Assembly (NCBI RefSeq): GCF_900206265.1 | Contig: NZ_LT907782.1 | Span: 744,001 to 808,000, forward strand | DNA length: 64,000 nucleotides | DNA from: Nitrosomonas ureae | Lineage (GTDB): Bacteria; Pseudomonadota; Gammaproteobacteria; Burkholderiales; Nitrosomonadaceae | Direction of reading: 5' to 3' | Part shown: one piece after another, positions 9,455-18,501 of the stretch | How the letters are laid out: every line of letters begins with the position of its first letter | Numbering within the stretch: the first letter of the stretch is position 1 | Notes under the pieces: model-generated | The model's database searches: none | What the model saw: only the letters and a program-made list of their open reading frames with translations | What the model was told of the DNA's origin: nothing | Translations under genes and position numbers: made by a program

Positions 9455-9530
9455 GGCCAAGTAGCTCAGTCGGTAGAGCAGAGGACTGAAAATCCTTGTG
9501 TCGGTGGTTCGATTCCGCCCTTGGCCACCA
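9455..9530 (+). tRNA. tRNA-Phe (anticodon GAA), integration target
   Basis: A 76-nt cloverleaf. The acceptor stem GGCCAAG pairs with CTTGGCC, then A and an encoded CCA. The D-arm is GCTCAGTCGGTAGAGC, the anticodon loop is CTGAAAA with GAA, and the T-arm is GGTGGTTCGATTCCGCC. Its 3' 50 bases are repeated exactly at 18446-18495, so the copy here is the functional gene restored by the element that integrated into it. The repeat starts inside the anticodon stem. Confidence 0.97.
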
Positions 9531-9536
9531 AATAAA
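9481..9536. repeat. attL: 56-bp direct repeat in the tRNA-Phe 3' half
   Basis: Bases 9481-9536 are identical over 56 bp to 18446-18501. After one mismatch the similarity continues for ten more bases (CAATAAGTTA). The repeat starts at the anticodon stem and runs 6 bases beyond the CCA, as expected for the core site of a tRNA-targeting tyrosine recombinase. Confidence 0.95.
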
Positions 9537-9585
9537 TCAATAAGTTATCAAATAAAACCCTAAGTGCTTTTTGTCTCTTAGGTAT

Positions 9586-9604
9586 CGTGTAAGGCTGGTG
9601 TAAG
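9586..9604 (+). promoter_or_regulatory. Candidate recombinase arm site, left end
   Basis: A 19-bp sequence (CGTGTAAGGCTGGTGTAAG) occurs here and again, identical and in the same orientation, at 18300-18318. Each copy holds two GTGTAAG heptamers spaced 11 bases apart, about one helical turn. It lies 50 bases inside attL. Arm-type sites of P4-like recombinases are short direct repeats at such distances from the core. Confidence 0.6.
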
Positions 9605-9960
9605 AAATTCCTGTGAATGACTGATCAACGAAAAGTAGTCAGTCATTAAATTTTCTTTTTTCACTACAGTTATTTTCTTATCTGCCGATAAAGCAAGAGC
9701 ACAACATCACGCTTTATGAAAGATGCCAGGGGAATTCGTCAGAGTTTCTCTGGTTATCCCAAACACTGATAATTTTCTACGTTACAGATAATTCATAATA
9801 AAAAACCAGTACGCATGGCTTTGTGAATGCCAAAAGGTGCGTACTGGATGAGTCAGTTACCAATCAACATGGCCTGAATGACTGACTAACTGATAAAGCT
9901 ATGAGCGAGTAATTTCAATAACGAGTCAACTACTTTGATGTTGACATGATGTGTTTGGAT
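9605..9960. other. Hairpin-rich non-coding left end of the element
   Basis: No gene is visible between attL and 10003. The stretch contains three inverted repeats. The first is AATGACTGA/TCAGTCATT at 9616-9647, followed by a T-rich run. The second is CCAGTACGCATGGC pairing with GCCA and TGCGTACTGG at 9816-9857, with a 5-base bulge. The third is AGTCAGT at 9860-9866 facing ACTGACT near 9880. The motif TGACTGA and its complement recur at least four times. It could be a replication origin, a recombination-complex region or stacked terminators; the sequence alone does not decide. Confidence 0.5.
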
Positions 9961-9987
9961 TAAATAAAAACCCGCCATAAAGACGGG
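9961..9987 (-). terminator. Rho-independent terminator of the element's leftward genes
   Basis: Read on the minus strand, CCCGTC, loop TTTAT and GGCGGG form a 6-bp stem with one T-G pair, followed by TTTTTATTTA. It lies 16 bases past the stop of the last element gene, so it closes the leftward transcription unit. Confidence 0.8.
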
Positions 9988-10002
9988 CATTGGGTAACGC
10001 CT

Positions 10003-10296
10003 CTATTTCGCAGTGTAGGTGAGGTCTTGGAAAATATCTTTGATTTGAAAATTAGAAAGCGGTGTTTGCATACTATGCGCTTTTTCTACCGCTTCATTAA
10101 GCGTTGCATGCGTAGAAATGAGTTGCCCCTTTCCTCCTAAGCTACAATTTTGTCTTAAGGTCAAGATGAATCCATTAAGTCCATTTGTCATTTGCGTGCG
10201 TCCTTTTAATAAGTCAATGAATAGCTGTCCTGAGTGATCTGCTGTGTTTTGTATATCGTTTGAAGTATTAGTCCTCCTTGATTTAAAAATAATCAT
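10003..10296 (-). CDS. Hypothetical protein, last gene of the element (97 aa)
   Basis: A 97-residue soluble protein that I do not recognise. Its first ~25 residues are basic and polar. The middle (LNGFILTLRQNCSLGGKGQL) looks like a beta-rich core, and the end is mixed. The start at 10296 has no Shine-Dalgarno sequence, but it lies 12 bases after the stop of the upstream gene, so translational coupling is likely. An AAGGAGG occurs inside codons 6-8 without a suitable start after it. It is followed directly by the terminator at 9961-9987. Position after the terminase-like gene would fit an accessory packaging or capsid-size role in a satellite, but that is speculation. Confidence 0.6.
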   Translation of the reverse strand: MIIFKSRRTNTSNDIQNTADHSGQLFIDLLKGRTQMTNGLNGFILTLRQNCSLGGKGQLISTHATLNEAVEKAHSMQTPLSNFQIKDIFQDLTYTAK

Positions 10297-10308
10297 TTGT
10301 GGTTGATT

Positions 10309-16677: not shown

Positions 16678-16930
16678 AATGTCTTTTCTCTCGGTTGTTG
16701 GCCTTGCGCAAGCTGATTATTCGCCGGTTATTTTCATGATCAACATAAACTACGCAATATAATCTTTCTCCAATTGGCGCTAAGGCAATCATGCGAATTT
16801 CCCCATACTCGCGTCGCATGTCCTGGCATATCAGCGCATCATCCCAATCAATGAATACCGCTTCAGTCAGTGATACACCATGCTTTTCCTTATTTATTGC
16901 ATCCTTGGCAGCATCGCAAATCACTTTCAT
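16655..16930 (-). CDS. brnT: BrnT-family ribonuclease toxin
   Basis: A 91-residue protein with the RelE-like BrnT fold. Near the start is 'DAAKDAINKEKHGVSLTEAV', the family's 'W/D-x-K-x-x-x-N-x-x-KHGV' signature region, though the usual 'FEWD' is replaced here by 'VICDAAKDA'. Then comes 'DMRREYGEIRMIALAPIGERLYCVVYVD' and the end 'RRIISLRKANNREKRHYAKV', which holds the conserved R-x-I-S-x-R-x-A-x-x-x-E. BrnT cuts RNA and is neutralised by BrnA, encoded next. The changed N-terminal motif could weaken activity. The promoter lies directly upstream. Confidence 0.92.
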   Translation of the reverse strand: MKVICDAAKDAINKEKHGVSLTEAVFIDWDDALICQDMRREYGEIRMIALAPIGERLYCVVYVDHENNRRIISLRKANNREKRHYAKVLND

Positions 16931-16935
16931 ATATT

Positions 16936-16988
16936 AATGTAGTTATGTTTATTATCGAAGTCAAGAATTATTTGTAGTTATGTTTATT
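16936..16988 (-). promoter_or_regulatory. brnT promoter flanked by two 16-bp operator repeats
   Basis: On the minus strand, TTGACT (16964-16959), 17 bases and TACATT (16941-16936) form a plausible sigma-70 promoter just before the brnT ATG. The sequence TGTAGTTATGTTTATT occurs on the plus strand at 16938-16953 and again, identical, at 16973-16988. One copy covers the -10 box; the other lies upstream of the -35 and runs into the recombinase stop codon. This is a fitting arrangement for BrnA autorepression. Confidence 0.65.
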
Positions 16989-18285
16989 TCTTTACAACAC
17001 ACAATCCTGCTTGTGTTGGTATAAAATTAATCCCTGCTTCCTTCAATATCCAGCTTTCTATTTTGACGTGCCACATGCGCAGCAAATCAAGTGGACGGCG
17101 TATATAGTTTTGTTCTCTAACTCCTTGCGGCTTATGTCCCTGAATTTGTGCGGCGATACCTGCGGGCATTTCTATCCATTCACACAAACTGGCAAAAGAA
17201 CGCCTCAATCCGTGCAAAGTTAAATCCAATCCAGCTATTGCACATGCTTTTCGGTGCGCTATGGAAGGATCGGTTAAGCGGCCACTTGCAGCGGTAGGGC
17301 TTGAAAATACCCATTCGTTGCGGCGCGTGAGTGCGGATAGCAAATTAGCCACATAAGGTGTTAACGGAATGACTCTAAAATCTTCTACTTTGTCATTAAT
17401 CGTTAAGCTATTCCATTGAAAATCTATATCCTGCCAGCGTAAAGAAGCGATTTCTTCGCGGCGTGCGCCAGTCAGCAAAAGAGTTTGCAGATATGCGGAT
17501 ATGATGGGATTCTGAATTTGTTTGATTGCCTTAAACCATGCGAGCAATTGCTCGCGCTGTAACACGTCGTGCTTAACCTTAGCCTTGCCCAGACTCTCTC
17601 GGGCATCATTATTCTGTGCTGGATTGCTTGTCACAATGGCTTTATACGTTGAATGTCTTCCGCACCAATTCAGAAAAGCTCTTAATAATCGTAGAGCAAG
17701 CCGTGCGCGTGTCGGTCGGGTCATGGCTTCGGTCTGTGCCCACTCAGTCACTAATTCTGGCGTTAAGTCTACCAGTCGAATTTTAGCAAGTGTGGCAAGT
17801 GATCCAGGCTCTGTCAGTTTTTTGCTTCGTTTGCGTGCATCGCCACCGGCTTGCATAACTTTGTCATGGTCGCGTATGTGCAACTCTGACCATAGCGGCT
17901 TGCGGGCAGTCACATATTCTTCCCATGCTTGACCTACTGTAACGATTTCACGCGCTTCCTGCGCTTTCCTAGCTGCTTCTGAGGCTTGTTTTGCCGCTTT
18001 TTCTTCTGCTGCTTCTTGACGCGGGTCTATGCCTTGATCGGTCTTAACTTTTAGTCGGGCTGCTTCGGTTTGTGCGTCTGAGATACTCCACGCTGGATAG
18101 TTGCCGATGGTTATACGCATGGTTTTGCCGTGTAGCTCAGTTTGGAATATGTAAGATTTTGTACCGCTGGCGGTAACTCGCAATCCCAAGCCGGACTGTT
18201 TCCCATCCCAGAAGATAGATTGCTTTGCCCCTGGTTTGCACTTGAATGATGCGACTCGTTCGGAAGTGAAGTTATCCCATTTCAT
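16984..18285 (-). CDS. int: Tyrosine recombinase (P4-type integrase) of the element
   Basis: A 433-residue integrase with the P4-family plan. An N-terminal DUF4102 arm-binding domain (SGLGLRVTASGTKSYIFQTE, then TIGNYPAWSISDAQTEA) is followed by a core-binding SAM-like domain (about residues 105-215) and the catalytic domain. That domain holds Arg near residue 273 (TGARREEIASLRW), the HxLRR motif near 356 (LHGLRRSFAS), His in QGHKP and the nucleophile Tyr near 393 (EQNYIRR). It catalyses integration and excision at the tRNA-Phe site. It lies at the attR side, reading into the element, with an ATG at 18285. Its stop overlaps one of the brnT operator repeats. Confidence 0.95.
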   Translation of the reverse strand: MKWDNFTSERVASFKCKPGAKQSIFWDGKQSGLGLRVTASGTKSYIFQTELHGKTMRITIGNYPAWSISDAQTEAARLKVKTDQGIDPRQEAAEEKAAKQASEAARKAQEAREIVTVGQAWEEYVTARKPLWSELHIRDHDKVMQAGGDARKRSKKLTEPGSLATLAKIRLVDLTPELVTEWAQTEAMTRPTRARLALRLLRAFLNWCGRHSTYKAIVTSNPAQNNDARESLGKAKVKHDVLQREQLLAWFKAIKQIQNPIISAYLQTLLLTGARREEIASLRWQDIDFQWNSLTINDKVEDFRVIPLTPYVANLLSALTRRNEWVFSSPTAASGRLTDPSIAHRKACAIAGLDLTLHGLRRSFASLCEWIEMPAGIAAQIQGHKPQGVREQNYIRRPLDLLRMWHVKIESWILKEAGINFIPTQAGLCVVKK

Positions 18286-18299
18286 TTTTGATTATTTCC

Positions 18300-18318
18300 C
18301 GTGTAAGGCTGGTGTAAG
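18300..18318 (+). promoter_or_regulatory. Candidate recombinase arm site, right end
   Basis: The second copy of the 19-bp repeat (CGTGTAAGGCTGGTGTAAG), in the same orientation as 9586-9604. It lies 14 bases before the recombinase start and 127 bases inside attR, so binding there could also repress the recombinase gene. Confidence 0.6.
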
Positions 18319-18445
18319 GAAATAATATCAAAATAACGGAACACCAATCAACACTAATAATAGGTAATATTCTGTAACTTATTTGTTTTTTAAAGAAAAT
18401 AATAATTATTTGAATAGCGATCAACACCGATAAACGGCATTTAAT

Positions 18446-18495
18446 GAGGACTGAAAATCCTTGTGTCGGTGGTTCGATTCCGCCCTTGGCCACCA
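18446..18495 (+). pseudogene. 3' half of tRNA-Phe left by integration
   Basis: Fifty bases equal to the 3' part of tRNA-Phe, from the anticodon stem to CCA. The 5' acceptor strand and D-arm are missing, so no functional tRNA can form. It is the displaced end of the original target. Confidence 0.93.
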
Positions 18496-18501
18496 AATAA
18501 A
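18446..18501. repeat. attR: 56-bp direct repeat
   Basis: Identical to 9481-9536 over 56 bases. It marks the right end of the element. Host sequence resumes after it with an AT-rich stretch that holds no gene up to the IS remnant at 18769. Confidence 0.95.

Follow-up and report, generated by a model that had tools for sequence, protein, structure and literature searches.

The window analysed here, 64,000 nucleotides corresponding to bases 744001-808000 of the complete 3.06-Mb genome of Nitrosomonas ureae, contains an integrated element that is probably a small satellite, of the cos type, exploiting lambda-like phages whose large terminase (TerL) is of the GpA family. An intact tRNA-Phe is called at 9455-9530. 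One copy of an exact att repeat of 56 bp starts inside it (9481-9536, plus strand); the second copy (18446-18501, plus strand; 56/56 identical) gives the element a repeat-to-repeat length of 8,965 bp, about 9.0 kb. A 22-nt repeat at 9586-9607, a candidate integrase arm-type site, is 95% identical to its partner at 18300-18321, neither being assigned to a strand. The tyrosine integrase of 433 amino acids (aa; 16984-18285, minus strand) has Arm-DNA-bind_3 and Phage_integrase domains and is 52% and 55% identical to homologues at the related loci L012 and L065 (L and G numbers denote loci and genomes). Both att repeats and the integrase are present, and the element is presumably able to excise. 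The 15 open reading frames (ORFs) accepted as genes, selected by setting aside overlapping ORFs of both strands in the mechanical list, all lie on the minus strand and run from the integrase to a terminator-like hairpin (9988-9970, minus strand) beyond the last gene. Near this far end are a cos-like site (10861-10945, minus strand) and the gene for a 176-aa protein (10309-10839, minus strand), the N-terminal domain of which is of the terminase small subunit (TerS) type.

Searches of Pfam and PHROGs with the 15 proteins gave no capsid, tail, lysis or conjugation family at E<0.01; the matches of a coiled-coil protein to tape-measure profiles (PHROGs, E 0.05 and 0.7) are taken as coiled-coil noise. 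The first-pass annotation of this DNA had correctly described a tRNA-Phe element with perfect 56-bp repeats, a single leftward gene row and the lack of capsid and conjugation genes. Of its terminator, the hairpin was recovered at the expected end, while a terminator scan is no richer than shuffled sequence (10 found versus 8.9). The recombinase that it called P4-type is an integrase by its domains. The cos-like site and the 22-nt end repeats had been overlooked.

Read on the minus strand, the site in the window is comprised of box 1 AGGTTCCTC (10945-10937), a core CGAGGGTGATTCAGGCCCC (10920-10902), TTCTAGC (10894-10888) and a 3' box ACTTGGTTGCTAA (10873-10861). The same parts recur throughout the family in a noncoding stretch of about 90 nt upstream of the TerS-like gene, where box 1 reads GGTACTTC and the core GAGGGTAATTCNNNCCNCG, followed by TTCTAGC and by a 3' box centred on GGTT. 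The site is present in 27/27 loci of the TerS-like protein cluster, of which 24 were hand-picked and three (L106, L107 and L116) were recovered by a model built without them; in L058 it has no 3' box, and in L107 a 227-aa ORF stands between site and gene. Model R2, from which the window and the sister element of the same genome were both left out, detects the window site at E 1.5e-15 as the only match in 64 kb at E<=10. In the genus as a whole, the site is found in 38/85 genomes at E<=0.01, and in the elements L062 and L066 no TerS-like gene follows it. In a table of 74 sites, with four prophage sites kept apart and neighbours assigned by eye, a match reaching at least model position 84 goes with a nearby TerS-like gene (27/9 versus 3/31), a result that is supportive only, because the sites that built the model are among those counted. 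When numbered from 10916, chosen as the first base because the corresponding position is the second base of the viral contig L246, the 3' box occupies bp 44-56 and the start codon lies at bp 78. According to the 2022 review PMC9026076, R3 of lambda lies at bp 50-65, positions 48-65 are proposed for phage-inducible chromosomal islands (PICIs), and the start codon is at bp 89 in N15, 102 in PICI-C and 191 in lambda. The conserved site is read as a cos site arranged like those of lambda, N15 and the E. coli PICIs.

Cos-like sites occur in other settings as well. A third one in the genome of the window (L225, G000:C1:2168431-2168514; E 2.2e-8) has no TerS-like gene; upstream of it are a relative of the recurrent ORF c44 (484 aa) and large ORFs, in an order similar to that of L238 (G467). 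L235, L236, L241 and L242 have the core but lack a TerS-like gene, and their match does not extend as far as the 3' box, with an integrase-cluster ORF upstream in three of the four; these are perhaps satellites depending on the TerS of the helper alone.

The site is common to satellites and phages. Model R1, built from satellite sites only, matches five of the ten GpA-terminase prophage loci of the genus (three in G464, one each in G146 and G418; E 5.7e-14 to 0.0024), in each case upstream of terS, and these matches stop at model position 57-75, before TGGGTTT. The weak G418 match lies above E 0.01 in the genus-wide search. None of nine Terminase_6N loci has an R1 match within 1.5 kb. The exact core pattern is found in four IMG/VR contigs, all of which also match R1 (E 6.5e-17 to 4.3e-11), and in two of the four the contig end is no more than 5 nt from the matched pattern (chance about 2e-6, in a post hoc test), as expected for linear virion DNA cut there. 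This bond with GpA-terminase phages strengthens the phage-satellite reading that the first-pass annotation had put forward.

The 176-aa protein alone matches phrog_57 (terminase small subunit) at E 0.018 and over residues 9-49 only; its homologues in L012 and L013 match the same family over residues 1-184 of 189 (E 4.5e-14). An alignment of 27 members contains a common N-domain of about 56 residues, which ends in RI-GN-G and is followed by one of two unrelated C-halves. Sixteen members, including the window protein and one that consists of the C-part only, belong to class A, seven, including L012 and L013, to class B, and four are truncated. Intact class A ORFs are 169-194 aa long (one, with an N-terminal extension, 215) and those of class B 184-204 aa. 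Profile comparison of the two kinds of C-half by hhalign, with eight TerS C-domains on the other side, gives a probability of 0.3%. Over 52 aa, the window N-domain has 50% identity with that of the L243 TerS (score 122 versus a shuffled maximum of 43), a phrog_57 protein (E 2.1e-21) encoded on a contig with a GpA TerL (E 1.1e-70), a lambda-family portal (4.5e-90) and a capsid (6.3e-39). This identity, together with the unrelated C-halves, indicates a protein in which the DNA-binding domain of TerS type has been given another tail: judged by its sequence, the N-terminal half is of the TerS DNA-binding type and the C-terminal half is unrelated to TerS. The earlier label of a TerS-like protein consequently holds for the N-domain and fails for the C-half.

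The two kinds of tail have different relatives. Among the seven class B C-domains, five show 51-53% identity with TerS from the G146 prophage, which has a GpA TerL, and 61-75% with TerS from the IMG/VR contig L246 (phrog_57, E 1.2e-20), the N-domains of both phage proteins being unrelated to theirs; the remaining two reach 35-40%. The class B satellite N-domains do not match the N-domains of five prophage TerS. The class A C-domain has no PHROGs family under E 0.05, no match in viral contigs, and three matches in 399 genomes of the order, all in Nitrosomonas, so that it is found solely in this genus in the searches made. A phage collection searched with the whole window protein and the whole L013 protein gave no match.

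The N- and C-halves have been reshuffled among sister elements. L098, of class A, has 89% identity in its N-domain with L012, of class B, and past the linker the two proteins have little in common; at the level of DNA, identity falls from 72-90% to about 35-42% near gene nucleotide 170-200. On a tree of 19 of the 27 N-domains (four proteins without class, one of C-part only, one with an unreadable N-half and two with cut N-ends were dropped), the C-class requires seven changes (bootstrap 6-7; shuffled labels 5.9), which means that it does not cluster, and the grouping of all class B members in one clade can be rejected (p-AU 3e-68). The well-supported branches by themselves force just one change, and the exact counts are soft because the alignment has 56 columns and the tree one well-supported inner branch.

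The 3' box varies with the N-domain. In 21 of 23 rows (L108 and L117 left out), N-domain distance correlates with 3' box distance (r 0.65, reached by 0/2000 permutations), the corresponding values for the other four site parts being 0.00-0.08; the C-class, compared in 19 rows, follows no site part (r -0.04 to 0.10). After removal of near-duplicates, beginning from 22 rows with L117 restored, 15 elements give r 0.49 (0/2000), and 9 give 0.49 as well (14/2000). In L071 (class A) and L111 (class B), the N-domains are sisters and the GGTTTCACGA box is identical. The box place reads TGGGTTCC in L243 and L244, the N-domains of which are of the satellite type, and L246, with its unrelated N-domain, has AGGTTAACC there plus further GTTAAC-like repeats. 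From this co-variation we infer that the 3' box is the target of the N-domain and that the two are passed on together as a single cassette. In L234, an integrase-AlpA element, and in L229 and L232, the 3' part likewise has GTTAAC repeats where the GGTTTC box would be; such sites, that of the phage contig L246 among them, possibly form a second specificity class.

Elements of this kind recur in the genus. The 176-aa protein family, with partial matches counted, is found in 26/85 genus genomes at E<=0.01 and the DUF3631 protein in 11/85; a profile scan of genome contigs with the whole-protein alignment of the 176-aa family gives four named loci, all from Nitrosomonas. Exact repeats of 35-62 bp, spaced 7.3-10.3 kb apart, delimit 12 of 31 loci (the window plus 30 fetched), and 11 of the 12 are at a called tRNA. 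The tRNA-Phe is also occupied by family members in L110 and L112 (by repeats) and in L101 and L108 (by position). The fetched loci share a gene order of integrase, cargo, an AlpA- or HTH_17-like gene, coiled-coil and small primase-like genes, a helicase- or ATPase-type gene, a TubC_N-like gene, sometimes the 74-aa gene, and the TerS-like gene near the far end. DUF3987 (L013, E 1.6e-80) and other replication-type genes occupy the position of DUF3631 in sister elements, and CHC2 zinc-ribbon and AAA_25 domains are present among the proteins of relatives. The 112 proteins of 11 delimited relatives include 11 integrases and replication families, and among the families listed for them (Pfam, 25 of 38; PHROGs, 25 of 72) there is no capsid, tail, lysis or structural family except TerS.

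Several phage satellites are known with which the element can be compared. As given in parts of PMC6092414, Gram-negative PICIs have an integrase, a replication module and a master regulator in order and no structural or lytic genes, are typically 12-15 kb long, occupy att sites never used by prophages, and show phage-dependent induction, interference and packaging into infectious particles; the PICIs of that 2018 study were all in Gammaproteobacteria. The present element has the integrase, and none of its 15 proteins matches a structural or lytic family at E<0.01. It is not filed as a PICI because its 8,965 bp (7.3-10.3 kb in relatives) fall short of 12-15 kb. The first-pass remark that its replication genes are unlike those of described Gram-negative PICIs still stands, and the size (9.0 kb) differs as well. 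The E. coli cos-type PICIs with Rpp (EcCICFT073), so far as sections of PMC6092414, PMC6739421 and PMC9026076 describe them, resemble it in the integrase, the slot of a helix-turn-helix (HTH) regulator, the replication-type gene, a cosQ/cosN-like core common to phages, and an adjoining gene for a TerS-like DNA-binding domain with a different C-domain. They are unlike it in size (12-15 versus 9.0 kb); the element is moreover in a betaproteobacterium, its family has DUF3631/DUF3987 modules, and in its sister elements the corresponding gene encodes a genuine TerS C-domain. The element would work like a cos PICI and has the anatomy of E. coli PICI cos-rpp.

Of Rpp itself, passages of PMC6739421 and PMC9026076 state that it joins a TerS-like DNA-binding domain to a different C-terminal dimerisation domain, and they propose that it has no TerL-binding region and that the TerS of the helper forms the bridge to TerL. 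In the same sources cosN and cosQ of the PICI match those of the helper, and cosB does not; here, five of the ten GpA prophage loci have matches that end before the 3' box, and three IMG/VR contigs match into it. The PICMIs (phage-inducible chromosomal minimalist islands) of Vibrionaceae (PMC10803314, in part) are likewise small, with an integrase, AlpA/HTH_17 and, as in the sister elements, a DUF3987-type gene. They lie beside fis, unlike this element in tRNA-Phe, and the relevant part of that paper gives no terS homologue for PICMI115 and no identified cos or pac site for its helper, whereas the present element has a TerS-type gene and a cos-like site. The TerS strategy of the Staphylococcus aureus pathogenicity islands (SaPIs), as outlined in PMC6739421, has its counterpart in class B relatives, which encode a TerS able in principle to pair with the TerL of the helper; SaPIs, however, are pac-type and reside in staphylococci, and the elements here are cos-type.

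The following course of events is proposed. The element would reside in the tRNA-Phe, be excised when a helper phage infects, and replicate by its own DUF3631 module. Its cosQ/cosN-like core, as in GpA phages, precedes a 3' box of its own, which sits where lambda-like phages keep the TerS-bound R3. The 176-aa protein may bind this box through its TerS-type N-domain, as the co-variation suggests, and so divert the terminase of the helper to the element. In class B relatives, the genuine TerS C-domain on the same N-domain would dock TerL directly. In class A, the unrelated helical C-domain would let the protein oligomerise and recruit the TerS of the helper as a bridge to TerL. Helper capsids would then carry the satellite.

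Because the TerS C-domain is replaced in class A, the protein is probably Rpp-like; if the element is a cos-type satellite, the chance that this protein recruits the TerS of the helper in the manner of Rpp, by analogy, is about even. A tentative wider proposal, held at somewhat less than even strength as a whole, is that one gene beside cos alternates between two known piracy strategies by swapping its C-terminal half: the N-domain and the cosB box would move as a specificity cassette, with the cosN core fixed to suit the phage terminase, and a TerS tail would replace the TerS of the helper, while the new tail would recruit it.

The strongest competitor accepts the satellite and makes the class A C-domain a true TerS domain of another sort, docking the TerL of a different helper lineage. 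Several phage TerS types do occur within the genus, and class A ORFs are about as long as those of class B, whereas the C-termini of Rpp are 30-40 residues shorter than those of lambda-like TerS (PMC9026076, in part). Since class A and class B sites have the core in common with GpA phages, the C-class tracks no site part and the searches turned up no class A C-domain in a phage, this is considered possible and less likely than Rpp-like recruitment; that the class A protein does something else again, given a satellite, is rather unlikely. A defective prophage, decayed apart from its cos and terS, would account for a cos-terS pair lying close to one end of an integrated unit that has an integrase of phage type, and is nevertheless very improbable in view of the same compact plan in many loci (7.3-10.3 kb where delimited), replication-type genes of their own, and class B N-domains unlike those of the five prophage TerS. 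Least probable is a plain integrative element or defence island in which the 176-aa protein would regulate transcription, with the conserved site serving as its operator or promoter, an idea suggested by the HTH nature of the N-domain, the site directly upstream of the gene and the toxin-antitoxin cargo, and opposed by the site upstream of terS in phages, at the ends of two of the four viral contigs, and in elements such as L062 and L066 with no such gene after it.

Several observations weigh against a cos-type satellite with an Rpp-like protein. No phage bearing the class A C-domain was found in the searches described. In a structure-based search, which the first-pass annotation had proposed as a check, structure prediction gave no fold match, and no chain of Rpp or TerS reached a significant E-value in searches of the PDB. 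With neither a phage source nor a fold match, the Rpp-like action rests on analogy. The co-variation of box and N-domain could be mere linkage or cassette inheritance, the 3' box being the part nearest the gene. In the phage contigs L243, L244 and L246 the match extends into the 3' box region with GGTT at the box place, so the 3' box is not confined to satellites; its copies in L243 and L244 overlap the start codon of terS. The remaining GpA loci (two in G401, and G469, G420 and G410; five of ten) have no R1 site. Twofold symmetry of the core is weakly supported: 72.8% of cells are paired versus 25-63% when slid, and 22/500 shuffles reach the covariation score and 53/500 the paired share. In the genome of the window there is no GpA or Terminase_6N TerL, and its only phrog_2 match is weak and comes from a model that also matches 13 of 14 control genomes; an infecting phage would therefore be needed as helper, as with PICMIs (PMC10803314, in part). 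Finally, the comparison of empty and occupied tRNA-Phe sites, also suggested in the first-pass annotation, yielded no clean empty site among the 85 genus genomes. The right flank is present in 33 of them, its own included, and the listed matches of the other genomes all start at or after base 70, so no clean empty junction is claimed.

The other genes of the element, all on the minus strand, begin after the integrase with cargo: a BrnT toxin (16655-16930) and BrnA antitoxin (16390-16677), both assigned by Pfam and PHROGs, and, adjoining this complete pair, a HigA-family antitoxin (16093-16380, by family search), for which no HigB partner was identified within the element. Two uncharacterised proteins follow, one of 128 aa (15596-15982) and one of 215 aa with relatives in four other fetched loci (14879-15526). 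The AlpA slot holds a 98-aa HTH_17-like protein (14488-14784; 66% identical in L012), the likeness of which (E 0.0013) is under the cut-off of Pfam; the L013 protein in this slot matches Phage_AlpA (E 3.6e-8). An AlpA-type regulator is plausible, and the small winged-helix protein of the first-pass annotation survives as a weak HTH_17 likeness in the right place. The coiled-coil protein (189 aa, 13916-14485) recurs across the family. It is followed by an uncharacterised 125-aa protein (13486-13863; in four other fetched loci), the gene of which overlaps by 11 nt that of the DUF3631 protein (12012-13496; Pfam E 1.5e-48), confirming the overlapping pair described earlier. DUF3631 is a domain of unknown function, presumably with ATPase motifs, and the place of the gene suggests a replication ATPase. 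Then come an uncharacterised 91-aa protein with a relative in L110 (11735-12010), a widespread TubC_N-like protein of 122 aa (11353-11721; Pfam; 21/85 genus genomes) and, preceding the cos-like site, a 74-aa protein with relatives in four other fetched loci (11004-11228). The last gene, beyond that of the 176-aa protein, encodes an uncharacterised protein of 97 aa and recurs in four other fetched loci (10003-10296).

Some observations concern the relatives. Their 112 proteins include HsdR-type restriction, BrnTA and HigB-like domains, which suggests anti-phage or addiction cargo. In the closest whole relative (L065, in G412; 9579-10643) the DUF3631 gene is interrupted by a 355-aa ORF, probably an insertion. 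The genome of the window has a second, decayed family member (L014, G000:C1:2247000-2266000; element at about 6069-13756) with 49-bp tRNA-Met repeats, a c3-cluster helicase-type gene, a truncated 75-aa TerS-like ORF and a cos-like site (E 2.5e-16) that is itself part of model R1.

A search of one literature collection found no paper joining 'Nitrosomonas' with 'phage satellite', and papers with 'Nitrosomonas' and 'prophage' exist. Cos-type phage satellites would be placed among the ammonia oxidisers of the genus Nitrosomonas. When one box changes along with the N-domain and the remaining site does not, sequence alone offers a way to the target of the protein, and the swapped C-domains would be a natural set for asking how satellites pass from replacing TerS to co-opting it.

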